Source of the DNA: a virus
IMG/VR virus record: IMGVR_UViG_3300049027_000047
Location: 1 to 64,000 of that record
Reading direction: 5' to 3' (one strand)
Length of the DNA: 64,000 bases
Position numbers and translations under genes: made by a program. The notes under the pieces are model-generated. The model made no database searches, was not told where the DNA came from, and saw only the letters and a list, made by a program, of their open reading frames with translations. Shown in pieces: positions 18,673-51,142 of this stretch; the stretch's first letter is position 1; each line of letters starts with the position of its first letter.

Positions 18673-19176
18673 ATGAGTGAAACCGCTGCCGCCAGACATA
18701 TTCTGGCCCCTTACTGCAAAGGACTTGGACTGGACCTCGGTTTCGGAGGGGACAAGGTTGTGCCAGAAGCCCTATCCTTCGACCTTCACCAGAAATACAC
18801 GCACGTAGGGGGTGACGCCCAGATCCTGCAAGGGGACTGTCGAAACCTGTCATTCATCTGCGATGGGGTGTTGGACTACTGCTACTCCAGCCACCTTTTG
18901 GAGGACCTGTGGTTCCATGAGTTGAAGCAGACGCTGGCGGAGTGGAGACGGGTCCTGAAACCGGGAGGACTGCTTATCACCCTCTGCCCAGACCAGCAGG
19001 TGTACTCTTTTCACTGTCAGAGGACAGGCCAACCCTACAATGAAGCACACAAAGAGCCCACGTTCTCCCTGTCCACATTCACAGAGGTAGCTCGCTCGGT
19101 CGGCAACTGGGAGACGGTTCTGGAGATCCCTCTGTTCAACACCTACTCGTTTGTCAGCATCCTTCGCAAGGCATGA
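18673..19176 (+). CDS. class I SAM-dependent methyltransferase
   Basis: A 167-residue Methyltransf_11-type enzyme. Motif I is LGLDLGFGGDK (residues about 17-26), followed by ALSFDLHQKY, an acidic GDCRNL, and the post-core EWRRVLKPGGLLITLCPD. Substrate not evident. It opens a cassette with two further methyltransferases and a glycosyltransferase, so a glycan or small-molecule target is likelier than DNA. Confidence 0.85.
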   Translation: MSETAAARHILAPYCKGLGLDLGFGGDKVVPEALSFDLHQKYTHVGGDAQILQGDCRNLSFICDGVLDYCYSSHLLEDLWFHELKQTLAEWRRVLKPGGLLITLCPDQQVYSFHCQRTGQPYNEAHKEPTFSLSTFTEVARSVGNWETVLEIPLFNTYSFVSILRKA

Positions 19177-19235
19177 AGTTCTTCATCATCAGCCCTGATG
19201 CCCACGGGAGGGTGGATGGATGGAACCAATTCTGA
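19173..19235 (+). pseudogene. 20-aa remnant of a gene start
   Basis: An ATG overlapping the previous stop by 4 nt encodes MKFFIISPDAHGRVDGWNQF and stops. This looks like the beginning of a longer enzyme truncated by deletion; a coupling-only leader is the alternative. Confidence 0.3.
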
Positions 19236-19251
19236 AACACCTTGACCTTCT

Positions 19252-19866
19252 ATGAGCAACATCACCAAGATTTCATGGCTGGAACCTTCTTCAATCCTCG
19301 ACTGCGGGGCATGGCTTGGTCACTGGGCCATGGAGGCGCATCGCGTCTGGCCTTATGCATCCATCCACTGTGTTGAGGGCAATCCGGCCTGTGAGGAGGC
19401 GCTGAAACTCACGGGGTTCCCTTATCAGATCGCCATGCTGGGAGAATATCACACCTCCAAGACCTACTACAAACAGGAAGGGACGGACATCGGGACCGGA
19501 AATGGACTGTATCGGGAGAATTCCCAGTGGTTTGAGAGATGCACGAGCGAGGAAGTGGACATTGTGCCTCTGGAATCCTTGTTCCCGCCAGACGCCCAGT
19601 TCGACCTGATCAAGCTCGACCTGCAAGGGGCAGAGATTGACGCCATGATGGGAGGACGAGACATTATTAAGAGGGCAAAAGCCCTGCTGATTGAGACATC
19701 AGTATCCAACTACAACCAAGGAGCACCCATGCAAGATCAAGTCATTGGATTTTGCAGGGCCATTGGTTTCCCATACTATCAAGCCATTGAAAACATCCAT
19801 CATCCCGCGAACCCATCCCTCCTGATTCAGCAGGATCTGTTGTTTACGCCCACATTTATAGGTTAA
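19252..19866 (+). CDS. FkbM-type methyltransferase
   Basis: A 204-residue enzyme. Motif I LDCGAWLGHW is at residues 17-26, IHCVEGNP follows, and KLDLQGAEIDAMMGG (residues about 124-138) is the FkbM hallmark. FkbM enzymes O-methylate sugars and polyketides. Neighbouring glycosyltransferases suggest a sugar substrate. Confidence 0.85.
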   Translation: MSNITKISWLEPSSILDCGAWLGHWAMEAHRVWPYASIHCVEGNPACEEALKLTGFPYQIAMLGEYHTSKTYYKQEGTDIGTGNGLYRENSQWFERCTSEEVDIVPLESLFPPDAQFDLIKLDLQGAEIDAMMGGRDIIKRAKALLIETSVSNYNQGAPMQDQVIGFCRAIGFPYYQAIENIHHPANPSLLIQQDLLFTPTFIG

Positions 19867-19874
19867 AGCAACAC

Positions 19875-20597
19875 ATGAAACATTCTCACGGCTTCAACCC
19901 ATCACCTGCCCACCCAGAGTACGAAATCTGCGAAGGGTGCGGGTCTCTCCACCGCATTAAAGATGTCGCGCCTGCATCCATCTACCAAACAGGGTACTGG
20001 AACCGGAAGGGATTCTCAAACCTACAGGAACAGGTTTTCAACGTCTCCCAGTTCAAGTCACACAAGGGGCTCGCCAAGGTGGAAGCGGTCATGCAGTACG
20101 CTGGAAAAGGCTCCCATGCTCTTGAGCTTGCCTGCGCCCCAGGATCGCTCTTGAAGGCACTGAGAGGGCATTACGACCATGTTGTAGGAGTGGAAGTTGA
20201 TCCGTCTTACCGGCAGCCCATGCTGGACATCATCCAAGGCGATGCAGCGATGGTGTTCGGTACGTTCCCGGAGGTCTCCAAGGCATGGCCCAGCGAGTCC
20301 TTTGACTTCATCTGTGGTTTAGACCTGTTCGAACACATCGACGACGGAGAGGCGTTCATGGCTGAGATCCTCCGGCTTCTCAAACCTGATGGAACTGTGG
20401 TGCTCATGTCTCCGTTCCAGACCAAGGAAGAACCATTGGATGAAGGCCAGTTCTGTGGAGAGCATGTCTGGCTCTATTCTGAATCCTTCATCAAGGAGTG
20501 GTTTGGAGAGATGTTCAAATCTGTCGTGACAGATAAATGGATTCACAACCACAACATCGTTGTCGGAAAGGGGAAGAAGACCAAGAAAGAAAAATAG
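19875..20597 (+). CDS. SAM methyltransferase with N-terminal zinc ribbon
   Basis: A 240-residue Methyltransf_23-like enzyme. It opens with YEICEGCGSLH (zinc-type CxxC), then motif I ALELACAPGSLL at about residues 77-88, VVGVEVDP, CGLDLFEHIDD, and RLLKPDGTVVLMSPF. The N-terminal zinc ribbon is typical of sugar C-methyltransferases. The palindrome at 20520 codes for Ser-Val-Val-Thr-Asp near its end. Confidence 0.85.
   Translation: MKHSHGFNPSPAHPEYEICEGCGSLHRIKDVAPASIYQTGYWNRKGFSNLQEQVFNVSQFKSHKGLAKVEAVMQYAGKGSHALELACAPGSLLKALRGHYDHVVGVEVDPSYRQPMLDIIQGDAAMVFGTFPEVSKAWPSESFDFICGLDLFEHIDDGEAFMAEILRLLKPDGTVVLMSPFQTKEEPLDEGQFCGEHVWLYSESFIKEWFGEMFKSVVTDKWIHNHNIVVGKGKKTKKEK
20520..20533. repeat. dispersed palindrome copy 10
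   Basis: Core TCTGTCGTGACAGA, inside the methyltransferase gene near its 3' end. Confidence 0.9.
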
Positions 20598-20598
20598 C

Positions 20599-21630
20599 AT
20601 GCTTACCAGCTCGACATTTGGGGATTGCGGAGATGGTGTGTACGTGGGGTGCATTCTCCACGAATTGGGAGGCAAACACCGATTCTTGTTTGAGCGATGC
20701 ACTGCCACCAAAGGCGTCACCAACCTGCGTCCTCTCATGCCTCTGATGCAATCCCAGCCCTACATTGAGGAGTGCCGCAACGCGACAGCTGGCGATGTCA
20801 TCCAATGGCAGTCAGGCAAATTCAGGGATATTGGGGCACACTCTCCAACGCTTACGCTGATTGCAGCCCACCTGAAGCACTACAACCAATTCTTCCGCAC
20901 CTCTCACAGGTTCACCGGAGATCGCCCGTGGATCTACGCTGACAAATCTCCAAAGTCTGATGGCAAAATAATCATCAACAGGACTTTCAGGTACAGGAAT
21001 CCCAACTTCCAGTGGAAGCAGGTGGTGGATTTCTACGGAGACAAGATTCTCTTCATCGGAGCACCCAACGAGCATGAAGATTTCTGCAATCAGTTTGGAT
21101 TCGTGGAATACAAGCCCACCAAAGACCTCCTAGAAGCCGCCCAACTGATTGCTGGGTCTCTCCTGTTCATTGGGAACCAGAGCGTCTGCGGGGCGATAGC
21201 TCAAGGGCTGCATCATCCGATCATCACAGAAGTGGCGATGCACATCCCTGACTGCATTTTCAAGAGGGACAACGCCCAATACTGCTATAACGGGGAAGTG
21301 ACGCTCCCCGGCTTCGACAAGCCGGACCTTAAGATCCCGGCAGTCAAGATCACCCCTGGTCGCCCCAGCACTGTCACCACGCCTCCTGGACAATGGCAGT
21401 ACGGCCCCTACAAGAGCTATTCCGCGGCTGATCTGGTCAACACCGTGAGACGTGCGGACTCCTCAGAAGACACTCCAGACCTTCTGGATCGCATTCTCCA
21501 GTTTAATGTCATGCGCTGCCCTGACTTCTTCATCGACCAAGGAGCCATCACCGGGTACAAGCGGGTGGAACAGGCCAGACTCAACGCTGGATATCCGCCA
21601 AGAGATTTTCGGGCCATAATCGGCATGTAG
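20599..21630 (+). CDS. GT-B glycosyltransferase-like protein
   Basis: A 343-residue protein starting one base after the methyltransferase stop. The C-terminal half has DKILFIGAPNEHEDF, LLEAAQLIAGSLLFIGNQSVCGAIAQGL and PIITEVA: the nucleotide-sugar-binding Rossmann half of GT9/GT-B-like enzymes (FIGNQS...AIA). Phage relatives occur next to FkbM enzymes. Acceptor unknown; virion or host-surface glycan are both possible. Confidence 0.6.
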   Translation: MLTSSTFGDCGDGVYVGCILHELGGKHRFLFERCTATKGVTNLRPLMPLMQSQPYIEECRNATAGDVIQWQSGKFRDIGAHSPTLTLIAAHLKHYNQFFRTSHRFTGDRPWIYADKSPKSDGKIIINRTFRYRNPNFQWKQVVDFYGDKILFIGAPNEHEDFCNQFGFVEYKPTKDLLEAAQLIAGSLLFIGNQSVCGAIAQGLHHPIITEVAMHIPDCIFKRDNAQYCYNGEVTLPGFDKPDLKIPAVKITPGRPSTVTTPPGQWQYGPYKSYSAADLVNTVRRADSSEDTPDLLDRILQFNVMRCPDFFIDQGAITGYKRVEQARLNAGYPPRDFRAIIGM

Positions 21631-21631
21631 G

Positions 21632-21659
21632 ACTTGCAAATTAAAAGCTTACCTAGTAT
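21632..21659 (+). promoter_or_regulatory. promoter with AGCTTACC spacer motif
   Basis: -35 ACTTGC (21632-21637), 16 bp, -10 TAGTAT (21654-21659), then 11 nt to the ATG at 21671: leader of about 4 nt. Confidence 0.5.
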
Positions 21660-21670
21660 TCTCAACTCCA

Positions 21671-23101
21671 ATGCGTTTCGTCGTTCCCGTCAGCCAGAGT
21701 GACCGTCATCTGTTGTCTAAGCGGATCGAGGTGTTTAAGCACCTTGGAGGGTGGAAGAACCACCACCTCCTCTTTGCTCCTGCCCCATCCTGTCTGGCAG
21801 AGGTTGAAAAAGTTGCTGAGGAGATGCGACCCTACTGTCCGAATGTCGAAGTCCGTGCGGTGGTACGTGAACCCTCTGGAGGATGGCCGGAAGCCTGCAA
21901 CAAGCACTTCCACGATACTGTCAACCTCCTCGGAAAACTCAGCAACCACCTCAACTGGTTCTTCTTGGAATTGGATTGCAATCCCCTCCGCCAAGGGTGG
22001 CAGGACGCGTTGGAAACAGCCTACAACTCTGGTGGAAAACCGTTCTGTGGGCACGTCCGTCCTACTTCCGAGGTGACAAGCCCTCCGCTAAAAGGGTCGC
22101 ACATGGTTGGAGCGGGAATGTATCCCTTCAACTTCCATGTCATCGCTGCTGCTGAATACCCGTATTTGGCACCAAAAGTACCGTTTGATGTGACTCTGCG
22201 GTGGAGGGTGCTTCAAAGTGGTGTGACGCACACGGACTTGATCGCCCACCGTCATTCTACCAAGGAGTACACTCTGGAAGGTCCGGTTTTGATTCCCAAT
22301 GAAGGGACACCTGTGGACATCAACGGTACCGCCTTGGTACACGGGTGCAAGGATGACAGTCTGGCTGATCTGGTGCTCTCGGGCGCTCTGGATTCTTTCC
22401 CTCCGCTTATCAAAGCTGCTCCAGCTGCCGTAAAGGCTGAGGTGACGACCAAGGCGCATGTCCCATCTCTGGAGTCTCAGCTTTCCTCGGCAGGCTACAG
22501 GAGCATCATGAAGGGTGTCTGGGCGCACTCAACGGTTTCCAACGAGTCGATTGCCAACCATCTTGGAGTCAAGACTGAGGTTCAGGCATCCAAGCCGCCC
22601 CTCACAGATATGGATTACGCTATCATGCGGGAAAGACGCAAGCTTGAGTCCCAGCCTGTTGTGGTCCCACAAGTTTCTCAGGAGGAATCTGTTGCAACAG
22701 ATTTGCCTCAACCAATTTCCGAAAGTCAGCATGGTATTCAGGGAGAACCTGAATCGGGTCTGGTGACACCTCATGAAACACTGATCTCGGAAGATACATC
22801 GCCAGAGCCGGGCGCTGATAATGCGGCTCCTCCTATTCATACCGTGACTGAGGACACGGGGCATCAAGGGGAAAGATGTGATGCCAGTTCAGTAGCTGCG
22901 TCCGGCAGTGAATCCCAGACCGGACAATCTTTCATCGACGATCTCACTCTCAAGGTGGCCCGATCCAAGCCCAAGCGCATCCGGGATTGGGCAGAAGAGT
23001 TGCAAGTTACTCACGAAGAACTAAGATCGCTGATTAACAGCCATCCTGAGTCCCGGTTGAAGATCGCCACCGCAGGCTGGTTGAGCATCGCCTCTGCATA
23101 A
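21671..23101 (+). CDS. glycosyltransferase-like N-domain with long linker and HTH-like C-domain
   Basis: A 476-residue protein. Residues 1-215 resemble GT-A phage glycosyltransferases (PSGGWPEACNKHF, WFFLELDCNPLRQGWQDAL, with ELDCN as the probable acidic metal motif). Residues about 300-430 are low-complexity and acidic. The last 60 residues (KRIRDWAEELQVTHEELRSLI, then KIATAGWLSIA) form a helix-turn-helix-like unit. It overlaps the portal start by one base, a placement seen in other phages. Confidence 0.6.
   Translation: MRFVVPVSQSDRHLLSKRIEVFKHLGGWKNHHLLFAPAPSCLAEVEKVAEEMRPYCPNVEVRAVVREPSGGWPEACNKHFHDTVNLLGKLSNHLNWFFLELDCNPLRQGWQDALETAYNSGGKPFCGHVRPTSEVTSPPLKGSHMVGAGMYPFNFHVIAAAEYPYLAPKVPFDVTLRWRVLQSGVTHTDLIAHRHSTKEYTLEGPVLIPNEGTPVDINGTALVHGCKDDSLADLVLSGALDSFPPLIKAAPAAVKAEVTTKAHVPSLESQLSSAGYRSIMKGVWAHSTVSNESIANHLGVKTEVQASKPPLTDMDYAIMRERRKLESQPVVVPQVSQEESVATDLPQPISESQHGIQGEPESGLVTPHETLISEDTSPEPGADNAAPPIHTVTEDTGHQGERCDASSVAASGSESQTGQSFIDDLTLKVARSKPKRIRDWAEELQVTHEELRSLINSHPESRLKIATAGWLSIASA
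22688..22701. repeat. dispersed palindrome copy 11
   Basis: Core TCTGTTGCAACAGA in the low-complexity part of the 21671-23101 gene (reads Ser-Val-Ala-Thr-Asp). Confidence 0.9.
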
Positions 23102-25386
23102 TGAGCACTCCTGTCCCCACCTCTTCCTACGATGGGCTTTTGAACGTGACTACCCCCAACGGCGAACTTGCCGTAGGGGAGCGCGTAAAGACGGTGTCAG
23201 ATGCCGCCAGCATCTACTGGACCATGCGGGAGGCTGACCAAGCCTCTGCTATGAACCGGGTCCAGATCCAGGCCATCCTTGACGGAGCGCCTCCTTACAA
23301 CCCCAGAATGGCAGCACGTCGGGGAATTGGAGACATTGCCAATGTGAACTTTGGGTTCATGGAGGACGCCCTCAATCTGTTTGAGGCTCCTTTCAACGAC
23401 CTGTTTGAGGAAGAGGTGCTCTTCACTACCCCAACTCGCTACGGGACAGACATCCAAAAACGGCAGGAAGACAGTCAAATCATTGCTGAGGAGTTCACCA
23501 AGCTGATCTCCAATCTGCCAGGGGTGGAGTTTGAGCGCCCCAACATGGTGAGAATGTTCGGCCTCCACGGGGTATCAATTCCCTACTTCCCAGACACAAT
23601 GGGAATTGAGTGGGAGACCACTTCCATGGGAGACTTCCTTATCCCCCGACATGTTCGGGCGAAGGTGGGGAGCATTGAGGTGGCATGTTTCGTCAAAGAC
23701 TGGATCACCAGCGATCTCTACAAGTTCATCAAAGATCCAGCAGTTGCAGAAGCTGAGGGCTGGAATGTCGCTGCTGTCAAAGAGCAGATCAAAAACGCCC
23801 ACGTCCAGAGCAACAACCCATGGAACCCTGAGCAGTGGGAGGATAGCTGGAAGAACAATGACATCGCCATGTCCATGGGGCGATCCAAGACAGTCAGGGC
23901 TGTGACCATGCTGGTGACATCCTTGGAAGGTCCGGTTTCCATGTACATCTTCCCCGAGGGAGGAAGTGCTGAGAACGGCACCACGGGTGAGTTCATGTTC
24001 AAGAAGCTGAACAAGTACGGCTCCCAGTCTGAGGCTTACACGATCATGACAGACTCCGTGGGAACTAACGGGTTCTACCACGGGATTCGCGGGGTGGGCT
24101 ACAAGCTCTTTGAGATCGTCAAGCAGATGAACATGCTCTGGAGCAGCTTCATCGACGCCATTCGCATGTCCTCAAAGCTGGTGATCAAGCCAACTTCGGA
24201 CAACTCCATGGAGAACCTCAACATGGTCCACTTTGGAAATTACGTGGTGATGCCGCCCAACACGGATACGGTGCAATGGCAGTTCCCCAACCTTCAGAAC
24301 ACGATCATCCCGGGGCTGAACATGATGAACGGCGTTCTCTCTGAGAAGGTGGGACGCTACACCTCAGAGGCAGACCTCAATCAAGCCAAAGAACAGACCA
24401 GGGCTGAGGTCATGGCAAGGGTGGATCAGGTGGCCAAACTATCCTTCTCACGGCTTAACATCTTCCTTCGAGCCTTCACCCGGCTGGGAAGAGAGCAGTT
24501 CCGCCGTGTCATGCGTCGTGACTGGACAGAACAGGATCGCAACGGCCCTGAAGTGCTGGCCTTCTACGCTGCCTGCAAACGCCGTGGAGTGGAGGCTGAG
24601 GCCATTCACAACGTGGACCTCTCAGAAGTGATTGCAGTCCGTCCGATTGGCAACGGTTCTGCCGCTGCCCGTACTGCCATCTACGACCGACTGTGGCAGG
24701 TGTTCCCCTACATGGATGAAGAGGGCAAAAACCTTTTCCTTCGCGATGTCACCAGAACCACTGGCGGAGTGACGGCGGCAGACAAGTACATGCCCAAGAT
24801 TCCCGGCCAGCGTCCTCCGATTGACGCGAAAGTGGCCATTCTGGAGAACAAGGACATGCGGGCTGGTGAGTTCATGCAGGTGGAACCCAACGAACTCCAC
24901 GCTGTGCACATTCCTGAGCACCTTCAGGAGATGCTGGCCATCATCAACCAGCTTATGGGCATGGAGATTTCTGAGGAACAGGCGATCCCTTCGCTTTCCC
25001 TACTCCAAGAACACACCTATACCCATCTCGGGTACATCAGCCCTCAAGACCCACGGCATGCCCAGTGGAATCAAGCCCTCCAGCAGACAGACGAGATCAT
25101 CACCAATGGTCAGCGTTCACTGGAGAAGAAGATGAAGGAGCAGGCAGAGGCTGAGGCTGCTGGACAGGATTACCAAGCCGCCCCTGATGAAGTGGGGGTT
25201 GCAGAACGTATCCAGTTTGAACAAGCTGCCATGGCGCTTGACAACGCCCTGAAGGAACAGAAGCTCAATATCAATGAGGCCAACCAGAACCTCAAAGTCC
25301 GTGAGGCGGAGCAGAAGATGGCCCTGCGTGATGCTGAAACTGCCAGCAAGATTCGAACCCAACGCCGCAAACCTTCCCGCCAATGA
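23101..25386 (+). CDS. portal (head-tail connector) protein
   Basis: A 761-residue protein. Its length, position upstream of scaffold and capsid genes, and features (long helical stem, GYKLFEIVKQMNMLWSSF, EKVGRYTSEADLNQAKEQTRAEVMARV, and a Gln/Glu-rich C-terminal helix) match podovirus portals. The portal forms the dodecameric channel through which DNA enters and leaves the capsid. Confidence 0.8.
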   Translation: MSTPVPTSSYDGLLNVTTPNGELAVGERVKTVSDAASIYWTMREADQASAMNRVQIQAILDGAPPYNPRMAARRGIGDIANVNFGFMEDALNLFEAPFNDLFEEEVLFTTPTRYGTDIQKRQEDSQIIAEEFTKLISNLPGVEFERPNMVRMFGLHGVSIPYFPDTMGIEWETTSMGDFLIPRHVRAKVGSIEVACFVKDWITSDLYKFIKDPAVAEAEGWNVAAVKEQIKNAHVQSNNPWNPEQWEDSWKNNDIAMSMGRSKTVRAVTMLVTSLEGPVSMYIFPEGGSAENGTTGEFMFKKLNKYGSQSEAYTIMTDSVGTNGFYHGIRGVGYKLFEIVKQMNMLWSSFIDAIRMSSKLVIKPTSDNSMENLNMVHFGNYVVMPPNTDTVQWQFPNLQNTIIPGLNMMNGVLSEKVGRYTSEADLNQAKEQTRAEVMARVDQVAKLSFSRLNIFLRAFTRLGREQFRRVMRRDWTEQDRNGPEVLAFYAACKRRGVEAEAIHNVDLSEVIAVRPIGNGSAAARTAIYDRLWQVFPYMDEEGKNLFLRDVTRTTGGVTAADKYMPKIPGQRPPIDAKVAILENKDMRAGEFMQVEPNELHAVHIPEHLQEMLAIINQLMGMEISEEQAIPSLSLLQEHTYTHLGYISPQDPRHAQWNQALQQTDEIITNGQRSLEKKMKEQAEAEAAGQDYQAAPDEVGVAERIQFEQAAMALDNALKEQKLNINEANQNLKVREAEQKMALRDAETASKIRTQRRKPSRQ

Positions 25387-25712
25387 CCGACCTGGAAAGA
25401 TGGTTTCAAGATCCTGAGAACCCGAAGGAACTGGCGCAAGCCCTTTCAATTCCTGCGGTGCAGAAGGCCATTCAGATGCTGGTGATGCTCAACCTGCCTG
25501 ACGGGTTTACCAGCGGTGATGCCATGACAAAAGTCACGCAAGCGGCCCACAACTGGCATTACTACGCTGGATTCCACGATTTCCACCGCAAGCTGAAGTC
25601 ACTGTCCATTTCCCTTGAACCAGAAGACAAGGAACCCTTGGAAGCTTTTGATCCTGCATGGTTGAAGGAATGGAGTGAGACCCGTCAGAAGAACCAATCT
25701 AAATCCGCATGA
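25383..25712 (+). CDS. conserved structural-operon protein, 109 aa
   Basis: Helical; ISxSLEPEDKEPLEAFDPAW near the C-terminus and WHYYAGFHDFHRKL in the middle. Overlaps portal and scaffold genes by 4 nt. The position between portal and scaffold suggests a head-assembly function. No family is recognised. Confidence 0.65.
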   Translation: MTDLERWFQDPENPKELAQALSIPAVQKAIQMLVMLNLPDGFTSGDAMTKVTQAAHNWHYYAGFHDFHRKLKSLSISLEPEDKEPLEAFDPAWLKEWSETRQKNQSKSA

Positions 25713-26857
25713 GCACTGAACTACTTGAAGCACCCGCAGGAGTGGACCCTTTCGACGGGGGTCTGGACCAGTTTATCAATCCTAAGCCGGAGGCCAAGGC
25801 AGAGCCTGACCAGAAGGTCGGAGAACCCGTCGTGACAGAGGTTGTGACGCCCGAGGTGAAAGCCGAAGAGGTTGCCCCTGTCAAAGATGACCTCCTTAGT
25901 GGAATCTCCGATGAGTCGGAATCTGTTACGACAGAAAAAGCAGAGGAGGAGATCAAGGAATACCCGCCAGAGATCCGGTCCATGAAGGCGCGGGAACATT
26001 TTGATGCCCTAAAAGCCTCCAAACGTGCCGCAGAACGCCGCGCTGCTGAGCTTGAGACCAAGGTCAAGGACTTGGAGTCTAAAGGAGGAATCAAAGCCCC
26101 GGAAGTGGCTGTATTGCAGAAGCAATACGATGAACTCAAGGAGAAGTGGGATGAAGCGCAGAAGGAACTCTCTTCTTCCTTCCTGCAAGGCACTGAGGAG
26201 TTCAAGAATGCCGTGGTGCGCCCCATGCAGGAGGCGACTACCGGACTGAAGAAGTTTGCTGAGGTCTATGAACTCTCCACCTCGGACATTGACGCTGCCC
26301 TTGGGGAGCCTGACGAGTTCAAGCGCAATGAGATGGTCTCCGACATCGCAGAGAGCATCCGTGGCCTCATGAACAAGGCCAAGTTTGAGAAGCTGGTGGA
26401 TCAATTCATCACCGCCAAGGCTAAGGAGGACGAGCTTTACCAGAACGCCGAGGGGTCGATGGAGTTCGCCAAGACCAAGAAGGCTGAGGAAGAAGCTGCC
26501 GCCAAGCTGAAAGCCGCTGAGGAGTACAAATCTGCACGTCAGACAGTCATTGAAAACCTATCCACCAAGCTTACGGACCTCAAAGAGGAGCCGGGAACAT
26601 GGGAGAAGGTCGTGGCAGACGCGGAGAGTGTGGATTTTGACTCCCTCTCACCAAAGATGAAGGCGTTTGCTGCCGTGGCAATGAACTCCATCAAACCCTA
26701 CCAAGCCAAAGTGGCGACTCTTGCAGCCAAGATTAAGCATCTGGAAGGAGTGATTGCCTCCCGTAATGCTGCCAGCCCTGGAGCAGCATCTGGATCGGTG
26801 ACGCAGACGATGAAGAAGGAAGGCGACTTCCTTGATGGCATCCCTATTCCCCGGTAA
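25709..26857 (+). CDS. scaffolding-like coiled-coil protein
   Basis: A 382-residue, highly charged protein with long coiled coils (residues about 100-165 and 250-340) between portal and capsid, exactly where podoviruses encode the internal scaffold. The N-terminal 90 residues are acidic and disordered-looking. The palindrome at 25922 is coding here. Confidence 0.7.
   Translation: MSTELLEAPAGVDPFDGGLDQFINPKPEAKAEPDQKVGEPVVTEVVTPEVKAEEVAPVKDDLLSGISDESESVTTEKAEEEIKEYPPEIRSMKAREHFDALKASKRAAERRAAELETKVKDLESKGGIKAPEVAVLQKQYDELKEKWDEAQKELSSSFLQGTEEFKNAVVRPMQEATTGLKKFAEVYELSTSDIDAALGEPDEFKRNEMVSDIAESIRGLMNKAKFEKLVDQFITAKAKEDELYQNAEGSMEFAKTKKAEEEAAAKLKAAEEYKSARQTVIENLSTKLTDLKEEPGTWEKVVADAESVDFDSLSPKMKAFAAVAMNSIKPYQAKVATLAAKIKHLEGVIASRNAASPGAASGSVTQTMKKEGDFLDGIPIPR
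25922..25935. repeat. dispersed palindrome copy 12
   Basis: Core TCTGTTACGACAGA inside the scaffold gene (reads Ser-Val-Thr-Thr-Glu). Confidence 0.9.
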
Positions 26858-27344
26858 AATGGTCCATGGAGGTGATGGCAAACCCCTCAACCCTCATCTC
26901 CACTACCGGACACCCTTGAAGCATCACAGGCCCAAAAGGCTGACCTAGGAAAGCTCTTAGACCGTACATTGTTCGTGGTCCTGCCATGGCAATGACGGTC
27001 TTTTCCTTTGGGACCAGCCATGAGAGATTCATAAGCAATTCTCTCGCAAGAGACGGACTGACCGAGGAGACATGCCAACTCATGGGCCAAATCATGCCCA
27101 GTTTGCGTGCTGTCAGCAATGCTTTTCTTGCGCAGAGGAACCGATTGGTGTTGACAATCAACGCCTATTGAGCAAACCTCGCAATAGGCGGCCCACCTTT
27201 AACGGGCAAAAAACACTCGGAGAATAATCACCCAGAGGTCTCCAACTGGGAACTTGAGCAACAACTGCTGGACATTGCTCCCGGCGCTCACCGTGGTCCC
27301 ACCAACGAGGATCACAAGTTCCAACCTCTTTTCTTTCTCCTTTT
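26858..27344 (+). other. 487-bp capsid upstream region
   Basis: An unusually long gap in a compact operon. A 61-codon forward frame (26986-27171) and a 105-codon reverse frame (26844-27161) overlap each other here and neither has clear support. The last 150 bp have no frame. It may be a capsid mRNA leader, carry a promoter, or hold a small unrecognised gene. Confidence 0.5.
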
Positions 27345-28565
27345 ATGCCTACTCCTGAGTGTTCCGCAGTGAACGACTACTTCGTGACTGAGAGCGGTCG
27401 TTTCATTGACAAGATCGTCGAACGTGGCCGCATGAAGTCTTGGTGGTCTTCCCTTGGCGGCAATGGTATTCCCTCTGAACCCTATCCTGACGGGATGGGC
27501 CTAAACTTCAACAACACCATCTGGGAGCGTTCTGGACGCACGGGTGGGGGCTGGACGGCTCAAGCGCTGAACTCTGGCGGCACTTCTGTCTGCGTACCTG
27601 ACGCGGGCATTGTGTACCCTGCCAACACGGTGCGCACCTCCGTTGGCTACAAGCAGGTGCTCTACACCGACTACATCTGCTTGGAAGACGTTCGCCGTGG
27701 CTACGAGTTCAAGCAGCAGGTCGCTGGCATCCGGGACAACTTCCAAGACCAGATTGTTGACGAGTGGGAATACCTCAACCGTCAGCAGTACGTGACTCTT
27801 GGGAAGAACAAGGTGGTGTTTAACCCCCAGCTTCCCAACAACACCTCTGGCACCACGATGACGGACTTCCCGGCTCAAGAGCCGACCAGTCCCATCACCC
27901 AGAACTACCTCGACCACCTGCGTTATGCGCTCAACCGCAACTCCGCAGCCATCGACGGTGGGGCCTATGCCATGGAAGACGGCCAGCCCGTTTACATGGT
28001 GGTGATGTCCCCTGAGCAGCAGCAGAGCCTGTTCCAGTCTGGCGGTACGATCTACCAGTCCAGCCGCATCAACCAGGACCTGCGCTACACCTCGGAGGCT
28101 GACAAGCTTTTGAAGGCATACGGTGTGAACCGGACTTACCACGGCTGGTTCCACATGATCGACTACAAGGCCCCCCACTACAACTTCGTCAACGGAGCAT
28201 GGGTGGAAGTGCCTTACTACTCGTCTGCCGCTGCCACCAACGGTACGCAGCTTCAGGTGAACCCTGACTACGAATCCGCTGACTATGAACTTGTCATCGT
28301 GTTTGTGAAGACGGCGATCACCCGCATGGTTCCCAAGACCTTCACCAGTGCCGGATCTGATGCCACCTTCAAGGCATGGGATTACGCTGGCACGGTCCAG
28401 TGGATCAACGCCTACGACCGCACCTGCAACCCGCTGCTCAACAACGGGTACTTTGCAGCCCAGCTGCAGGCCACCTACAACCCGAAGAAGATCGATAACG
28501 CCTACTCCATTATGGTGAAGCGTTGCCCCCGCGACTTCGAGATGGTGACCTGCACTGTGTCCTAA
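27345..28565 (+). CDS. major capsid protein candidate
   Basis: A 406-residue protein. Placed after the scaffold, preceded by a long leader, and followed by a strong hairpin, as highly expressed capsid genes are. It is Asn/Tyr/Gly-rich with an N-terminal helical part and long beta segments. No signature motif can be named by eye, so the call rests on position, size and composition. Confidence 0.7.
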   Translation: MPTPECSAVNDYFVTESGRFIDKIVERGRMKSWWSSLGGNGIPSEPYPDGMGLNFNNTIWERSGRTGGGWTAQALNSGGTSVCVPDAGIVYPANTVRTSVGYKQVLYTDYICLEDVRRGYEFKQQVAGIRDNFQDQIVDEWEYLNRQQYVTLGKNKVVFNPQLPNNTSGTTMTDFPAQEPTSPITQNYLDHLRYALNRNSAAIDGGAYAMEDGQPVYMVVMSPEQQQSLFQSGGTIYQSSRINQDLRYTSEADKLLKAYGVNRTYHGWFHMIDYKAPHYNFVNGAWVEVPYYSSAAATNGTQLQVNPDYESADYELVIVFVKTAITRMVPKTFTSAGSDATFKAWDYAGTVQWINAYDRTCNPLLNNGYFAAQLQATYNPKKIDNAYSIMVKRCPRDFEMVTCTVS

Positions 28566-28577
28566 TCACCCATCCCC

Positions 28578-28617
28578 AGAGCGGGCAGCTTGAGGTCTTC
28601 CTTGAGTTGCCCGCTCT
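28578..28617 (+). terminator. hairpin after the capsid gene
   Basis: A perfect 10-bp stem AGAGCGGGCA/TGCCCGCTCT with a 20-nt loop, 13 nt after the capsid stop. It is followed by TTAATAG rather than a T-run, so it may be an mRNA-stabilising or attenuating hairpin rather than a full terminator. Confidence 0.6.
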
Positions 28618-28635
28618 TAATAGAAAGGCATTTTT

Positions 28636-28929
28636 ATGGCTGGACTTGAAATCGAGATTGAGAAGAAGGGTGGAGACTACATCGAGATGAGTCCCCCAGA
28701 GGGATTCATGGTCCCAGAAGGACTGGATGAGGATGCCACCTTTGAGACTGTCACTGAATGGCGGCTCAAGCCCAATGGCAAGATGTGCGTCGTCTCTATT
28801 GACGGCGTGGAGGTGCCTGAGAAAGAAGACAAAATGGAGGAGCTTGAAGGGGAGGAAGACTTCTACCAGCCCCCTACTTCTGGCGATGATGACTTCATTG
28901 CTGGAATGGAAAGAAGCATGCGAGCCTAA
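28636..28929 (+). CDS. acidic capsid-associated protein candidate, 97 aa
   Basis: Very acidic; it has a beta-strand core (KMCVVSIDGVEVPE) and a Glu/Asp-rich C-terminus ending FIAGMERSMRA. The position directly after the capsid suggests a decoration or head-completion role. No family is recognised. Confidence 0.55.
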   Translation: MAGLEIEIEKKGGDYIEMSPPEGFMVPEGLDEDATFETVTEWRLKPNGKMCVVSIDGVEVPEKEDKMEELEGEEDFYQPPTSGDDDFIAGMERSMRA

Positions 28930-28934
28930 AACCT

Positions 28935-29222
28935 ATGTCTGACGCATTCCAAAATCCAACACCTCTGGCCAACGAGTACCCAAGTCAGGCCGTACATAAG
29001 TTCGTTGTGGGCGTCTGGGAGCAGATTCAGTCTGGATCGTTTGGAGGAGGAGGCGGTCTCCCAATCCCTCCAAACCAGACTGATGTTGCCATTGCTTATT
29101 ACGGCTCCACCAACAACATCCAGACAGTGACGTATTCGCCTAGTGGATACACGTTGACTCTGACCTACGCTGGCGGTGGAGTGGCTGACAATGATCTTCT
29201 CACCAACGTATCAGGATCCTGA
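28935..29222 (+). CDS. small virion protein, 95 aa
   Basis: Gly-rich hinge (SFGGGGGLPIPP) followed by beta strands (NNIQTVTYSPSGYTLTLTYAGGG). This resembles the short fibre-adaptor or head-fibre base proteins located before fibre genes. Ends 4 nt before the next gene. Confidence 0.55.
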   Translation: MSDAFQNPTPLANEYPSQAVHKFVVGVWEQIQSGSFGGGGGLPIPPNQTDVAIAYYGSTNNIQTVTYSPSGYTLTLTYAGGGVADNDLLTNVSGS

Positions 29223-29225
29223 TCT

Positions 29226-30083
29226 ATGCCATACGTTTTTAATCCACTCACTGGGAGGCTGGACTTCACCAATCCGGGGTCCTCTTTTGATCCTCATTCT
29301 CCTGGTCCGATTGGGGATGTGACTCCATCTACTGGGGCGTTCACTTCCATTACATCTGCTCCAGGGAATGACGAGTCAGGTCTTTCCATTACAGCCGGGT
29401 CCATCACAGGTTCAGGAACCACTCCCTTTTTGTCTGTGGCGGGCGAATGGGACACGACAGGATCTCCCGCTGCGATCCAGGTGGACGTGACGGCGGGTGC
29501 CTTTGGGAGCGATGCTAGCCTGATTGACCTTAGGTCCGGCGGGGTCTCGCGCTTTGCTGTGGATATCAACGGCGCTCTGAGGCATTCGCTTGTGACCTCT
29601 GGCGATGTGGTGCTCGGTGGGTCTGTGATCGCCACGGGAACGCTAGAGACCGCAAGCGAAGTTATTGGTAATAACTTCTTCGCATCTGGTGACGTCGTGG
29701 TTGAAGGGTCAGTGCTGTGCGCTGGCTACGCAGAGATTGCTGGGTACTTGACGGTGGTAGGCAATGTGACCATGAACAATGCCGCGATTGAAGGAGAGTT
29801 CTTGCTGAAGAATAATGTGCTCCTTTCGGCAGTTGGTACCGGGGTTCTGACGTTGCTAGACTCGACTTACGTTTCCTTCGACCGATTGCAATTTGGCGGG
29901 GAGACAAGCGACTATCCATCGATGCAGCGATCTGGGGCGGCGATGGTCGTCCGCCTGGCAGATGACAGTGCAGATGCAGGGCTGCGGGCGGCATCACTCC
30001 ATCTTTCGGACTTGCCCACGTCTGATCCTGGAGACCCCGGGGTGGTGTGGAATGATGGAGGAACTCTAAAGATTTCGATATGA
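29226..30083 (+). CDS. fibre-like protein, 285 aa
   Basis: Thr/Ser/Gly-rich beta-repeat composition throughout. The C-terminus reads SDPGDPGVVWNDGGTLKIS, a motif common at the end of phage fibre subunits. It may be a head fibre or short tail fibre; the position close to the capsid favours a head-associated fibre. Confidence 0.65.
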   Translation: MPYVFNPLTGRLDFTNPGSSFDPHSPGPIGDVTPSTGAFTSITSAPGNDESGLSITAGSITGSGTTPFLSVAGEWDTTGSPAAIQVDVTAGAFGSDASLIDLRSGGVSRFAVDINGALRHSLVTSGDVVLGGSVIATGTLETASEVIGNNFFASGDVVVEGSVLCAGYAEIAGYLTVVGNVTMNNAAIEGEFLLKNNVLLSAVGTGVLTLLDSTYVSFDRLQFGGETSDYPSMQRSGAAMVVRLADDSADAGLRAASLHLSDLPTSDPGDPGVVWNDGGTLKISI

Positions 30084-30430
30084 GCACCAATTTAATTCCC
30101 ACTACACCCAAGACTGCCGCCGAGATTCAGGCGGACGCAATCGTCAACGGCGTGAATCAACAGCTCAAGGCGCGGGTGAGTACGCACAAGATTATCTGGT
30201 CCAGTCTCTGGGAAAGCCCTGCTACATCTGCGGTGGATATCCTGGCCGCGCTGGGGCCGCGCGGAGTGAGAGCGCTCCAGGCGGGGGCGCAATCCGTGGC
30301 GGATCTGACGGCCTGCGCCGCCATTGCTGGTACTACGGTGGAGGCACTGGTGGGTGATGCCAAGTACCTCACAACGAAGCTGCCGGTATCCATCACTGAA
30401 GATGGAGTTGTGACGATCAGCGACGATTGA
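30080..30430 (+). CDS. virion-operon protein, 116 aa
   Basis: Helical N-terminal half (AAEIQADAIVNGVNQQLKAR...), Ala-rich middle and C-terminal beta hairpin. It matches small phage proteins that follow head fibres. Overlaps the fibre gene by 4 nt. Confidence 0.6.
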   Translation: MSTNLIPTTPKTAAEIQADAIVNGVNQQLKARVSTHKIIWSSLWESPATSAVDILAALGPRGVRALQAGAQSVADLTACAAIAGTTVEALVGDAKYLTTKLPVSITEDGVVTISDD

Positions 30431-30446
30431 CACCGCCTCCCTCGAC

Positions 30447-30474
30447 GGAGCTTTGATCATACTGTCAAAGCTCC
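30447..30474 (+). promoter_or_regulatory. 10-bp hairpin in intergenic region
   Basis: Perfect stem GGAGCTTTGA/TCAAAGCTCC with an 8-nt loop, between two rightward virion genes. It lacks a T-run. Possibly an mRNA processing or attenuation element. Confidence 0.5.
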
Positions 30475-30505
30475 TGAAGGAGGAGACGGGAAAGACTGAT
30501 GAATA

Positions 30506-31300
30506 ATGGCCAATCCTGATCCATTTGTTGTTGTCGGAACCGTTAACCCTAACGAGTTCTCCTTCATCACGTATGTACGGGCGCAGTGGAACATCCAGCT
30601 TCCGGTGGCTGGAGTGACAATCTACAACGACTGGAAAGAGGCTGTCTATCCTCAAGCCACCTTGGACTGGGGAGGTTATGTGTACGGGGATACGGTTGAA
30701 GCCCCTACAGGATGGTTGGGGTTCTTGTGGGTGAGGAAGAAGACTGAGACTGAGAAGAACACCCCTTACAGGACATTCACAAGGAATGGGAACCATCGGT
30801 GGCCTCCTGTGCTCTACTCACTGAACTTCATTCAGGATGCGTCCTTCCCAGCTTCAACGAACGGGCCTGACGGGTCCATTGTGCGTGCGCCAAGAGTCTT
30901 TGTAAGACAGGTGTTCAAGCCTGAATCCAACGAAGGCTCCCTCTTCAAGTACGAGTATTTCCTGTCTGACAGCAAGTACGAGATCCCCCCTTATCCTGCT
31001 CCTCAGCCACAGGAGGTCTCCTACGACTTTCTAGGGGCCTCTGGCACGTTCCCAGAATCCCTTCATAAGAAGATCGTCATCCGCCCTCAGAGGACCGCTG
31101 TAGCCAAGTACAGCGTTGGCGGAGGGGAGCAGGGCGTTGGAGGAGGCGTCCTGGGAGGCCAGCTTTTTCCTTCTACAGAACCGTTTGAGGACTGGGTGCC
31201 TTACGTCATCTCTGACAACCAGACTTTTCAACAAGGCCAGTACAGCCGTGAGAGAGTGACTGTGTTCCCTCCGATTCTGGACAACATCACAACCCGCTAA
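30506..31300 (+). CDS. structural protein candidate, 264 aa
   Basis: Beta-rich, with many Trp/Tyr/Pro residues and a Gly-rich loop (VGGGEQGVGGGVLGGQLF). Position in the virion operon implies a tail or fibre-related component. No family is recognised. Confidence 0.6.
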   Translation: MANPDPFVVVGTVNPNEFSFITYVRAQWNIQLPVAGVTIYNDWKEAVYPQATLDWGGYVYGDTVEAPTGWLGFLWVRKKTETEKNTPYRTFTRNGNHRWPPVLYSLNFIQDASFPASTNGPDGSIVRAPRVFVRQVFKPESNEGSLFKYEYFLSDSKYEIPPYPAPQPQEVSYDFLGASGTFPESLHKKIVIRPQRTAVAKYSVGGGEQGVGGGVLGGQLFPSTEPFEDWVPYVISDNQTFQQGQYSRERVTVFPPILDNITTR

Positions 31301-31304
31301 TTCC

Positions 31305-31736
31305 ATGCCCTGGTCCAATGCTGCCCCCGCCCCCTATGTCCTCCTTCTCAGGAATGGCATCCAGACCAGCGTGCCTGGAGTCCAGTCTGAGACGCAAGAG
31401 GATCTCCAGCTCTTTGACGGTGAGACCTACCGTGATGAACTGGATGCCACTTTCCTAGGTACAGGGAGGAACGTCGCAGTAACTGGATCTGGAACTGACG
31501 CCATCATTACCAACGGGAACCAGTCCAGCATTACCGGGTCCACAGGATACCAAGCGGTGCAAGACCCTTTGATGGAGGAGTCGGATTCATTCTCTCACAC
31601 GCCTCCACGGCCAGTCGAGAGCACCCGTACCCGGCTCTTGTGGTGGAGCGCAGCTTCTGGCACTGGAAATGTGGTGGGTTGGGCATGGGCAGATCAGGTG
31701 GTTGACTTCTCTCCTTCGACGCATGTCCGCATCTAG
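31305..31736 (+). CDS. structural protein candidate, 143 aa
   Basis: Beta-rich, opens MPWSNAAPAPYVLLLRNG and ends in WAWADQVVDFSPSTHVRI. Starts 5 nt after the previous gene, and its stop is immediately followed by the next ATG. Confidence 0.6.
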   Translation: MPWSNAAPAPYVLLLRNGIQTSVPGVQSETQEDLQLFDGETYRDELDATFLGTGRNVAVTGSGTDAIITNGNQSSITGSTGYQAVQDPLMEESDSFSHTPPRPVESTRTRLLWWSAASGTGNVVGWAWADQVVDFSPSTHVRI

Positions 31737-31934
31737 ATGGACTCCAACGCCTTCAAGTTCTCTGACCCAAGTTCCCCATGGCTGACCCCCATGGGACCTT
31801 TGGTATTGAGGGGAGGGTTGAGAGGGATGGTCTCACAGTACAGTGACGGGGTCACGAATCTGCTGACCCCTAAAAGGGTCCCTATGAGGCGCAAGACAGA
31901 CTTCACGTACGTGTCTTTCCCTATTGAAACTTGA
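31737..31934 (+). CDS. hypothetical protein, 65 aa
   Basis: Starts directly after the upstream stop (TAGATG). Basic, Pro/Arg-rich. Its end overlaps the promoter of the next gene. Not recognised. Confidence 0.55.
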   Translation: MDSNAFKFSDPSSPWLTPMGPLVLRGGLRGMVSQYSDGVTNLLTPKRVPMRRKTDFTYVSFPIET

Positions 31935-31958
31935 ACTCCTTATTAGCTTTGCTATTGT
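31931..31958 (+). promoter_or_regulatory. leaderless-type promoter with TAGCTTTGC spacer
   Basis: -35 TTGAAC (31931-31936), 16 bp spacer ending TAGCTTTGC, -10 TATTGT (31953-31958), 7 nt to the ATG at 31966. Confidence 0.7.
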
Positions 31959-31965
31959 CGGGTCA

Positions 31966-32691
31966 ATGCCTGATCCTATTGCTCTCACTATTATCAGTCC
32001 CTCCTACGAAAAGATGGGACGAGAAGCGGTGAAGAGGGTTCGGAAGCACACGGGATTGGATGTAAAAGTGGTCCGTTGTCCTGACGCTGAGGGGTTCAAA
32101 ATGAAACTGCGGCTGGATGAACTGGCAGGAAATCGACCTGTGCTGTTCTTTGATTGCGATTACTGGATGCTTCAGCCATGGGATTTACGTGGGTTCTTGG
32201 GTGCTCCAACAGTGATGGCTGTCCATGACTCGGCGGTGTTCCAGCCTGCCTCATTCGTTCATCAGGACTGCCTGTTTCATGGTTTGGACTGGCAGAGGTA
32301 TATCAACACAGGAGCCATGTGCCTCGATTTCAGCAGGAAAGAGCACCGTGATGTCATGATTCTGTCACGACAGATTTACTGGAGGATCAAGGCTGGAAAG
32401 ATTCAGACGGCTGACAACACGGACCAGTTCGCCATCAATGCCGCTCTGATTCAACTCGGGACGCCGCAAACCCTCCTCCCCATCAAATACAATTTCTACT
32501 CCAAAAGCGTGGAATGGGGTCAGCTCCCGTTCTACCCGAGGGATATAGTGGGGCTGCATGCTGCTGGGTATGTCCGTGACGAGAAGCTTGCAGCCCTTAA
32601 AAGGGAGGCGGCATTCTTTGAGAGGAACAACCACCCCATGCTGCCCGGTTCCGTAAACTTTGAATTCCACCGTTGGTTTGATCTCCGATGA
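31966..32691 (+). CDS. GT-A glycosyltransferase-like protein, 241 aa
   Basis: The conserved acidic motif is VLFFDCDYWML at residues about 65-75 (DxD type, metal and nucleotide-sugar binding), followed by NTGAMCLDFSRKEH and DNTDQFAINAAL, as in GT8-like enzymes. It is transcribed from its own leaderless-type promoter. The palindrome at 32361 is coding here. Confidence 0.7.
   Translation: MPDPIALTIISPSYEKMGREAVKRVRKHTGLDVKVVRCPDAEGFKMKLRLDELAGNRPVLFFDCDYWMLQPWDLRGFLGAPTVMAVHDSAVFQPASFVHQDCLFHGLDWQRYINTGAMCLDFSRKEHRDVMILSRQIYWRIKAGKIQTADNTDQFAINAALIQLGTPQTLLPIKYNFYSKSVEWGQLPFYPRDIVGLHAAGYVRDEKLAALKREAAFFERNNHPMLPGSVNFEFHRWFDLR
32361..32374. repeat. dispersed palindrome copy 13
   Basis: Core TCTGTCACGACAGA inside the glycosyltransferase gene; here the frame differs (reads Ile-Leu-Ser-Arg-Gln-Ile). 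Confidence 0.9.
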
Positions 32692-33413
32692 AACACGCAT
32701 TCTACATCACTGCCTACAACGATCCGAAGGAAGCGTCCAGATCAATGGCCCAGTTTGGACCTCTCTTCCCAGAAGCTGAGAAATTCCTTTCCAACCAGTC
32801 CTCTGAGGAGTTCTGGGGCGAGTACGATGCGCTCTGTAAGGAACATGGGTTCACTCACTTGAAATGGACCAATGAGGGGGCAAGCGCTGCCAAGCGTAAA
32901 GTGGTAAAGCATGCTCATCAGAACGGCTTTGGAATCATCTCCCAGATCAGTGAAGACTTTGAACTCACTCCATTTGAGGACACTAACCCGTCTGTAGCCA
33001 ACGGCAGGAATCACTTCGTTAAAGATGCATTGAAGATCCTCACAGAGGAGCCGAAACTGGCGTTCATGCATTGGACCTACATCCGCAGCGGGGTTCATCA
33101 AGGATACTTCTGGTCCCTCACCAGAGGGCCTTCCATGCGATTTAGACGCCATCCTAAAACCGTTCTGCCTTACCTAGATGGGGAAGTATCCCTGTTCAAC
33201 TGGCCCTACACAGGCAAGGTCAAAGAAGTGGATGAGCTTTGGGAACAGGCTCTCATTTTTACCCCTAAGGACACCCAAGAGGTGAATGACAACAAAGCTA
33301 GCGGTGGAGAGTACGCTTTGACCCAAGTGTCTCTTGGGAAGGGTGGATGCCTTGTAGCCCACCCTGTGCGTCATACAGACCGCGCCAAGAAACCGGAGGG
33401 AAGCATGTCATGA
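32688..33413 (+). CDS. GT2-like glycosyltransferase candidate, 241 aa
   Basis: Opens KHAFYITAYNDP, as GT2-type transferases do, with FGIISQISEDFELTPFEDT as the likely acidic active-site segment. The C-terminal half has aromatic-rich strands. Overlaps neighbours by 4 nt on both sides (ATGA). Confidence 0.5.
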   Translation: MKHAFYITAYNDPKEASRSMAQFGPLFPEAEKFLSNQSSEEFWGEYDALCKEHGFTHLKWTNEGASAAKRKVVKHAHQNGFGIISQISEDFELTPFEDTNPSVANGRNHFVKDALKILTEEPKLAFMHWTYIRSGVHQGYFWSLTRGPSMRFRRHPKTVLPYLDGEVSLFNWPYTGKVKEVDELWEQALIFTPKDTQEVNDNKASGGEYALTQVSLGKGGCLVAHPVRHTDRAKKPEGSMS

Positions 33414-34081
33414 AAGCTTTTACCACATTTACTGCAAACTACCTCCCAATGGCCAAGGAAGCGGGAGACCGTTTCATGCGTTTTGGCGGCATTTCCCATG
33501 TTGATTACATCAGATGCAAGGATGCCAGAGAATGCTACAAGCTGAGGATGGAGACTCTGCTCAACTACCAAGAGCCTGTCTGGCATTTTGATTCGGACCT
33601 CTGGATGTTGCAGGAGTGTCTTCTTCCAACTCCCTCGAAGAACTTGGTGTTTGCAGCCCCGTCTGATGGGTTGAATGCCCGGTACATGAAGACCGTCGTC
33701 CCGCCTTGTTCAGCGCTGGACACCTGTCTAGTGGGGCTGGATATGGGCCATGAACCCATCAGGAAGCTCGTAGAGCGGGCCATTGAGCTACAGGCCGGGG
33801 ATTACAGGGACGACACGACTGCCTTCAACCTCGCCTTCCACAATGAGCCGTGGGTGCTGCTCGCACGGTTGAGCAACACATGGAACTGGTGCGGGCCACC
33901 CAAAGAGCGGACCATCGCCATGCACTGCGCCCTCAGACCTGACAAGCTGGAATGGTTGACCAAGAACTCGGAAGCTTATGAACACCTACCAAGACAGGTA
34001 TCTGGCCCACCAGGGAAGGAAGCGGGAGGTTCTCATGGAAATAATGAAGGAGAGGCACTCGCTGAGGGTGTTCAGGGATGA
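33410..34081 (+). CDS. GT-A glycosyltransferase-like protein, 223 aa
   Basis: Related to the 31966 gene: acidic motif VWHFDSDLWML (residues about 58-68), then LDTCLVGLDMG and DDTTAFNLAFHNEPW. The start at 33410 overlaps the previous stop. Its last 35 codons overlap the nitroreductase gene in another frame and look non-conserved (Gly/Glu-rich), suggesting a shifted or extended end. Confidence 0.65.
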   Translation: MKAFTTFTANYLPMAKEAGDRFMRFGGISHVDYIRCKDARECYKLRMETLLNYQEPVWHFDSDLWMLQECLLPTPSKNLVFAAPSDGLNARYMKTVVPPCSALDTCLVGLDMGHEPIRKLVERAIELQAGDYRDDTTAFNLAFHNEPWVLLARLSNTWNWCGPPKERTIAMHCALRPDKLEWLTKNSEAYEHLPRQVSGPPGKEAGGSHGNNEGEALAEGVQG

Positions 34082-34487
34082 AAGAGTCCCTGATGAGACT
34101 GTAGCTGAACTGGTAAAGTCCGTCATCTACTGCCCCTCCTCCTGTGACCGGAAGGCCATCAGGATCGTCAGGATCAACGACAGGGACAATAAGGCCCTGC
34201 TGGGAGGTATTCTTGTGGGAGGAACAGGATGGATACACCGCGCCCCTGAAATCTTCCTCCTCATGGCTGACAGAGAGGCGTACAAGGCTCTGGGAGAGGT
34301 CCAATACATGCCCTACTTGGATGCTGGGGTGGTCGTGCAGCAGCTTTACCTCTGCGCTACAGCGTTGGGTCTTGCTTCAACGTTCTGCAACCCTTCTATC
34401 CGGGAGGTGAATAAGGAGCACTTCCACAAGGTGTTCGGGGATGGGATATTCTGCGGGGCCTTTGCTTTTGGCCACAAAGCAGGTTGA
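33978..34487 (+). CDS. nitroreductase-family protein
   Basis: A 169-residue protein. MEIMKERHSLRVFRDERVPDETV at residues 20-42 carries the R(H)S(L)R FMN-phosphate motif, followed by YCPSSCDRKAIRIV, GGTGWIHRAPEIFLLMAD and DAGVVVQQLYLCATALGLAS. This is the standard order for FMN-dependent nitroreductases. A start at 34035 is also possible. It overlaps the glycosyltransferase by up to 104 bp. Rare in phages; role perhaps redox modification of a sugar or nucleotide. Confidence 0.8.
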   Translation: MNTYQDRYLAHQGRKREVLMEIMKERHSLRVFRDERVPDETVAELVKSVIYCPSSCDRKAIRIVRINDRDNKALLGGILVGGTGWIHRAPEIFLLMADREAYKALGEVQYMPYLDAGVVVQQLYLCATALGLASTFCNPSIREVNKEHFHKVFGDGIFCGAFAFGHKAG

Positions 34488-34577: not shown

Positions 34578-34651
34578 AGGGACTTGGTGTAGTGGTAGCG
34601 CAATGGGCTTTGAACCCATCGGGACAAGTTCAATTCTTGTAGTCCCTTCCA
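34578..34651 (+). tRNA. tRNA-Gln (anticodon TTG)
   Basis: Complete cloverleaf: acceptor AGGGACT/AGTCCCT, anticodon loop CTTTGAA (TTG at 34610-34612), T arm ACAAG-TTCAATT-CTTGT, encoded CCA. Confidence 0.93.
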
Positions 34652-34653
34652 AA

Positions 34654-34728
34654 TGTCGGGTAGAACAGCGGTAGTTCAGCGGATTGTTAATCCGCAGGTC
34701 AATGGTTCGAATCCATTCCCGACAGCCA
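34654..34728 (+). tRNA. tRNA-Asn (anticodon GTT)
   Basis: Complete cloverleaf: acceptor TGTCGGG/CCCGACA, D stem GAAC/GTTC, anticodon loop TTGTTAA (GTT at 34686-34688), T loop TTCGAAT, encoded CCA. Confidence 0.95.
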
Positions 34729-34899: not shown

Positions 34900-34903
34900 T
34901 TTT

Positions 34904-36459: not shown

Positions 36460-36472
36460 AGTCCATATGCTG

Positions 36473-36501: not shown

Positions 36502-36562
36502 GACAAAGCTGAGAGCCTGTTTCCGCAGACTCCCAGCCTCTAACCCTAGACATGCTGTAATC

Positions 36563-48991: not shown

Positions 48992-49032
48992 GGCTCCGTT
49001 TCCGGCTCGCGCTGGGACGGGGCCACTTTTTT
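48992..49032 (+). terminator. rho-independent terminator
   Basis: GGCTCCGT...GACGGGGCC hairpin followed by a run of six T (49027-49032), at the convergent junction between the rightward virion operon and the leftward terminase gene. Confidence 0.7.
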
Positions 49033-51103: not shown

Positions 51104-51142
51104 ATTGCCATCTTCCTTGGCGCAGAGCAACGGCTAAAAGTC

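Follow-up and report, generated by a model that had tools for sequence, protein, structure and literature searches.

The window, meaning the whole stretch of DNA that was analysed, comprises 64,000 bases out of a 68,558-base record of a virus of bacteria known from environmental DNA alone. Two sets of genes lie on its plus strand, one before a portal-like gene and one after a major-capsid-like (MCP-like) gene (Table 1). Cassette 1 contains three methyltransferase genes followed by g4 and g5, and the g5 stop overlaps the start of the portal-like gene at base 23101. Cassette 2 lies between f264 and t324. Several of the late genes here have overlapping stops and starts, and the starts listed for g4 (20599), GTa (31966) and GTc (33410) are likely the true ones. 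A scan for promoters and terminators gave a result at chance level.

Table 1. Positions of the two cassettes and neighbouring genes in the window, with the basis for each name
Feature	Position	Strand	Basis or remark
Cassette 1	18673-23101	+	MT1, MT2, MT3, g4, g5
MT1, class I SAM methyltransferase, 167 aa	18673..19176	+	Methyltransf_11, 1.1e-8; near-core
MT2, FkbM-type methyltransferase, 204 aa	19252..19866	+	Methyltransf_21, 7.7e-8; optional member
MT3, Methyltransf_23-type methyltransferase, 240 aa	19875..20597	+	Methyltransf_23, 7.3e-17; optional member
g4, putative GT9/heptosyltransferase-like GT-B fold enzyme, 343 aa	20599..21630	+	AlphaFold model and Foldseek
g5, putative GT-A fold enzyme, 476 aa, with linker and small C-terminal domain	21671..23101	+	Model
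Portal-like protein, 761 aa	23101..25386	+	Conserved homologues beside g5; name from gene order and size
MCP-like protein, 406 aa	27345..28565	+	Conserved homologues; name from gene order
f264, late virion-gene cluster protein before variable slot, candidate acceptor	30506..31300	+	Profile A9
f143, small protein between f264 and GTa	31305..31736	+	Open frame
Cassette 2	31966-34487	+	In variable slot between f264 and t324
GTa, putative GT8-like glycosyltransferase, FFDCDYW	31966..32691	+	Family profile A4 versus LgtC
GTb, protein of no assigned family, 241 aa	32688..33413	+	Start overlaps GTa stop
GTc, putative GT8-like paralogue of GTa, HFDSDLW	33410..34081	+	Identity to GTa; alignment A4
Nitroreductase-family protein, slot cargo	33978..34487	+	PF00881, 2.1e-13
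t324, late-cluster protein, far end of variable slot	35485..36459	+	Homologues there in relatives
Terminase large subunit, used for sampling relatives	49031..51130	-	Profile versus 8dkr

The labels "portal" and "head" were given by the order and sizes of the genes; profiles of the portal-like and MCP-like proteins found no match in the PDB or PHROGs. For the terminase, the profile matched the large terminase 8dkr with an E value of 0.00088, which is weak direct support, and the alignment contains a Walker-type motif. The small protein f143 weakly resembles (13 bits) a small protein upstream of f264 in a relative (L184). Other features of the window were recorded as well. A gap of ∼490 bases with no plus-strand coding frame (26858-27344) precedes the MCP-like gene; the only frame covering it is short and antisense (26844-27161). 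At the end of the slot, between the nitroreductase gene and t324, are four tRNA genes (Gln, Asn, Pro and Arg; 34578-34976). A 3074-aa frame (39151-48375) is conserved in relatives and has no Pfam or PHROG match; together with the sizes of the portal-like and MCP-like genes it gives a layout that recalls N4-like phages, by likeness only. Two related frames (14636-15619 and 36467-37258) share the stretch GRTF/KFNRLTV..., YSPENC.W.TR.EQ.RNK and by eye resemble HNH-type homing endonucleases.

Sampling of relatives

Among 50,697 phage records, no relative of the cassette region was found, nor any match to the portal-like, g5 or GTa proteins of the window or to the portal-like, g4 or g5 proteins of one relative (L017). 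Pattern scans of IMG/VR using the portal-like, MCP-like or GTa sequence of the window alone also returned nothing; relatives came up once single window sequences were replaced by alignments. An IMG/VR scan with g5 yielded relatives that also possess portal-like, MCP-like, terminase and g4 genes. Because selection by the genes under test was to be avoided, relatives were then resampled by terminase, giving 24 records of at least 31 kb each. Gene neighbourhoods were taken from 17 distinct lineages of terminase whose flanks reached 6 kb or more on each side. A literature search found no paper describing this locus.

Predicted activities of the cassette enzymes

All three methyltransferases scored above the Pfam gathering scores. 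MT2 reached 33.1 bits against Methyltransf_21, where the cut-off is 22.7, and so belongs to the FkbM family. Neither g4 nor g5 has a Pfam match or a meaningful PHROG match, so a fold test was needed for the claim that they are glycosyltransferases; since searches of PDB sequences with the g4 and g5 profiles gave nothing significant, folds were compared instead. AlphaFold models were built from alignments of 22 sequences for g4 and 24 for g5.

The g4 model is confident (pLDDT 92) and matches GT9 structures over the whole domain. Against WaaC, the Foldseek value is 2.7e-7 and the structural alignment has a Z of 15.6 over 227 residues (rmsd 3.8); TibC follows with a Z of 13.3, and other, non-GT9 proteins of the GT-B fold have Z values of 8 or below. 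In the g4 alignment, G11-D12 (GD) is invariant and coincides in position with the N-terminal motif of GT9 enzymes. We model g4 as a GT-B fold protein of the GT9/heptosyltransferase type and a putative glycosyltransferase. It shares the whole fold and the invariant GD with the GT9 heptosyltransferases WaaC and TibC, but differs from them by an extra C-terminal region and by having no match to the Pfam GT9 model (a cellular relative of g4 gives 0.077 only); due to the latter, it is filed as GT9-like rather than as a GT9 member. A g4 relative with 33% identity in a Fimbriimonadaceae genome (L176, 4755-8696) adjoins a 1039-aa GT2 and TPR protein.

For g5, the core of the model has pLDDT values >90, and the top 50 structure matches are all GT-A enzymes (Z 13-16 over ∼200 residues), from which it is modelled as a GT-A fold protein and putative glycosyltransferase. 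Where a DxD motif is expected, g5 carries a near-invariant ExD (E100, D102) that may bind metal, and these residues and HGCKD are among its most conserved. The C-terminal part (22390-23098 of the window) consists of a variable linker and then a short conserved domain (...LA..L.V......GW.) that is common to many relatives and missing in the L007-L019 group. The single pattern used found no g5 relative in bacterial genomes.

GTa and GTc have no Pfam match. They are paralogues, with 40% identity over a stretch. Their family profile (A4) matches the GT8 galactosyltransferase LgtC with an E value of 0.0032, weak but correctly placed, in a comparison by sequence only; the DxD and the later Asp/Asn positions of LgtC are shared, and D63, D65, D153 and N158 are invariant in the A4 alignment. 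GTa and GTc are thus weakly indicated to be GT8-like, putative glycosyltransferases. GTb matched nothing in Pfam, PHROGs or the PDB or by profile comparison, and comparisons of the GTa/GTc profile with g5, and of the GTb profile with both, gave no support for kinship.

An earlier sequence-only reading had placed here three methyltransferases (one FkbM, one of zinc-ribbon type), two glycosyltransferase-like genes directly before the portal gene and three more, with DCDYW or DSDLW motifs, downstream. All three methyltransferases stand, the FkbM enzyme by Pfam, and the upstream pair is borne out by the models of g4 and g5. Downstream, the claim holds for GTa and GTc by motif and by the weak LgtC match. 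The zinc ribbon attributed to MT3 comes down to a single CxxC that is missing from the nearest relatives, and it was dropped, as was the assignment of GTb.

Distribution of the two gene sets among relatives

In the terminase-selected sample, g5 is present in 22 of the 24 records and g4 in 20. The flanks of the 17 terminase lineages contain g5 in 14 cases, g4 in 13 and MT1 in 11. In one lineage (L022) the g4-g5 pair is found elsewhere in the genome (L119), outside the terminase flank, and one clade (L058, L059) is without the pair. Distance matrices for terminase, g4 and g5 (21 lineages plus the window) correlate with r values of 0.70-0.87, which none of 2000 permutations reached, as expected if the genes are inherited together. 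Judged by gene content, a wide lineage of uncultured phages has MT1, g4 and g5 as near-core genes. An FkbM gene of the MT2 type occurs in the same module of two other lineages (L037/L149 and a 69,426-base record holding L023 and L100). MT3 is directly upstream of g4 in L119 and L100 and beside MT1 in L010.

A one-base overlap between the g5 stop and the start of the portal-like gene was seen in 37 of 66 adjacent pairs, some of the records counted being near-identical. A further large group has its g4-g5 module between terminase and a protein homologous to the 3074-aa one, not next to the portal-like gene. The acceptor therefore cannot be read from the neighbouring gene, and the module is tied to late genes, not strictly to the head. 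These arrangements bear on the idea that g4 and g5 are glycosyltransferase folds serving mainly in structure or assembly, for example of the portal or head. We think this quite improbable: the overlap with the portal-like gene, the near-core conservation and the variable linker and extra C-terminal domain of g5 would all suit such a role, but the most conserved residues resemble active sites (G11-D12 in g4; E100, D102 and HGCKD in g5), the companion methyltransferases are kept, and some genomes have the pair at a site that does not adjoin the portal-like gene.

Cassette 2 has a different distribution. Of 37 records, 16 match the f264 profile (A9) and 6 contain the GTa family, always just downstream of f264 (6 of 16 f264-positive versus 0 of 21 f264-negative records). 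In other f264-positive records, the slot holds a GT2-Methyltransf_24 fusion next to f264 (L181), genes for a GT2-TPR protein, a hexapeptide-repeat protein and a collagen-like protein together (L183), a Methyltransf_24-like protein with GT9 (L187) or with GT2 (L188), or a collagen gene with a 2OG-Fe(II) oxygenase (L186). A wider set of 42 f264 loci came down to 13 lineages, of which 12 have a modification enzyme downstream of f264 and none has one upstream; since several seeds came from the slot itself and the records are related, these counts describe the pattern and do not test it. On this pattern of neighbours, the contents of the slot are exchangeable cargo, in which unrelated enzymes of similar predicted function are swapped between lineages.

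The 69,426-base IMG/VR record has the collagen-like gene after f264 (PF01391, 2.9e-23) and the oxygenase (3.2e-11) at L186 2035-4882, and a PLOD-type glycosyltransferase (3e-26) in cassette 1 at L182 8716-9426. Together these genes resemble a phage pathway that would hydroxylate and glycosylate collagen.

Candidate targets and comparison with known systems

The sequence-only reading had treated the two cassettes as wrapped around the head genes and proposed either glycosylation and methylation of a virion protein or fibre, or modification of host surface sugars to exclude other phages. Both gene sets are real, but one being near-core and the other exchangeable cargo, they do not form one functional unit. 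As to the target, conservation, the slot and the fusion speak for the virion, and the host surface is the less likely of the two.

Our preferred reading, held with somewhat better than even confidence, is that the enzymes of both cassettes are soluble products of late genes and assemble a methylated glycan on at least one virion protein in the infected cell. In a core step, g4 and g5 would transfer sugars from nucleotide-sugar donors of the host, and methylation of these sugars would fall to MT1 together with the optional enzymes FkbM and MT3. In a variable step, GTa, GTc and perhaps GTb would extend or vary the glycan on a protein of the f264 late virion cluster. Catalysis, sugar identity, the virion-protein acceptor and the benefit, which may be shielding, stability or altered adsorption, are what we infer. 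A virion-protein glycan is favoured because the enzymes appear soluble (no strongly hydrophobic 19-residue stretch, maximum 1.58), the genes are late genes, exchange occurs beside a virion-cluster protein, and a glycosyltransferase is fused to a methyltransferase in one slot. A search for a sugar-nucleotide synthesis gene of the PF00483 type found none, so sugar donors would come from the host. The conservation of the core genes suggests that the lineage as a whole puts sugars on its own virions.

WaaC and LgtC act on lipopolysaccharide, and as the closest folds of g4 and GTa/GTc include these enzymes, action on the host surface would fit them equally well. Late alteration of host lipopolysaccharide, capsule or S-layer, by which other phages would be excluded or progeny kept from binding debris, accordingly has the likeness of g4 to the heptosyltransferase WaaC, the weak likeness of GTa/GTc to the galactosyltransferase LgtC and the GT2-TPR neighbour of the bacterial g4 relative on its side. 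We nevertheless consider it unlikely. Neither cassette contains the membrane-embedded glycosyltransferase and flippase of Gtr-type serotype conversion, and the setting is one of late genes. Phage genes that modify surfaces are usually accessory, whereas g4 and g5 form a near-core pair that accompanies virion genes. Cassette 2 is linked to the virion-cluster protein f264, and relatives have collagen-like genes in the same slot.

Phage DNA is a far less probable substrate. Glycosyltransferases that modify DNA are known in phages (as cited in PMC12619734), and this genome has an N6/N4-type DNA methylase (58544-59308) that could hint at hypermodified bases. The enzymes are located among late genes, however, and no gene that would make a base for glycosylation was found: the 68,558-base record lacks a thymidylate-synthase-type gene (PF00303), and a search for a C5 DNA methylase found none, with control genomes positive in both searches. 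A TET/JBP search gave no match, with control genomes silent too.

On a more ambitious version of virion glycosylation, which we regard as doubtful, g4, g5 and MT1 would be a lineage-defining glycosylation machine; in many members, co-translation of g5 and the portal-like protein would let the growing head be glycosylated as it is assembled. The f264-t324 slot would be a site dedicated to exchange, by which the lineage varies its surface decoration, including hydroxylated collagen-like fibres in some relatives.

If virion glycosylation is near-core here, it is a basic property of the lineage rather than a rare accessory. The exchangeable slot offers a testable route to the decorated virion protein, and its natural variants supply alternative enzymes that presumably share one target. 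Virions of mycobacteriophages are glycosylated by phage-encoded glycosyltransferases (Freeman et al. 2023, as cited in PMC12619734), and enzymes of this general kind are proposed here to put glycans on virion proteins. According to that source, subunits of the mycobacteriophage capsid and tail tube have been demonstrated to carry the glycan, whereas here it is deduced from genes; moreover, no phage record matches the present enzymes, two of which form a near-core GT-B/GT-A pair. Moraphage, as described in PMC12619734, likewise represents an uncultured aquatic phage lineage with several core glycosyltransferases, a likeness by description only, but these are jumbo phages and the genome here is ∼68.6 kb. 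Phage-encoded glycosylation of virions is known; the present case differs by having g4 and g5 as a near-core pair in an uncultured lineage and by the swappable slot at f264.
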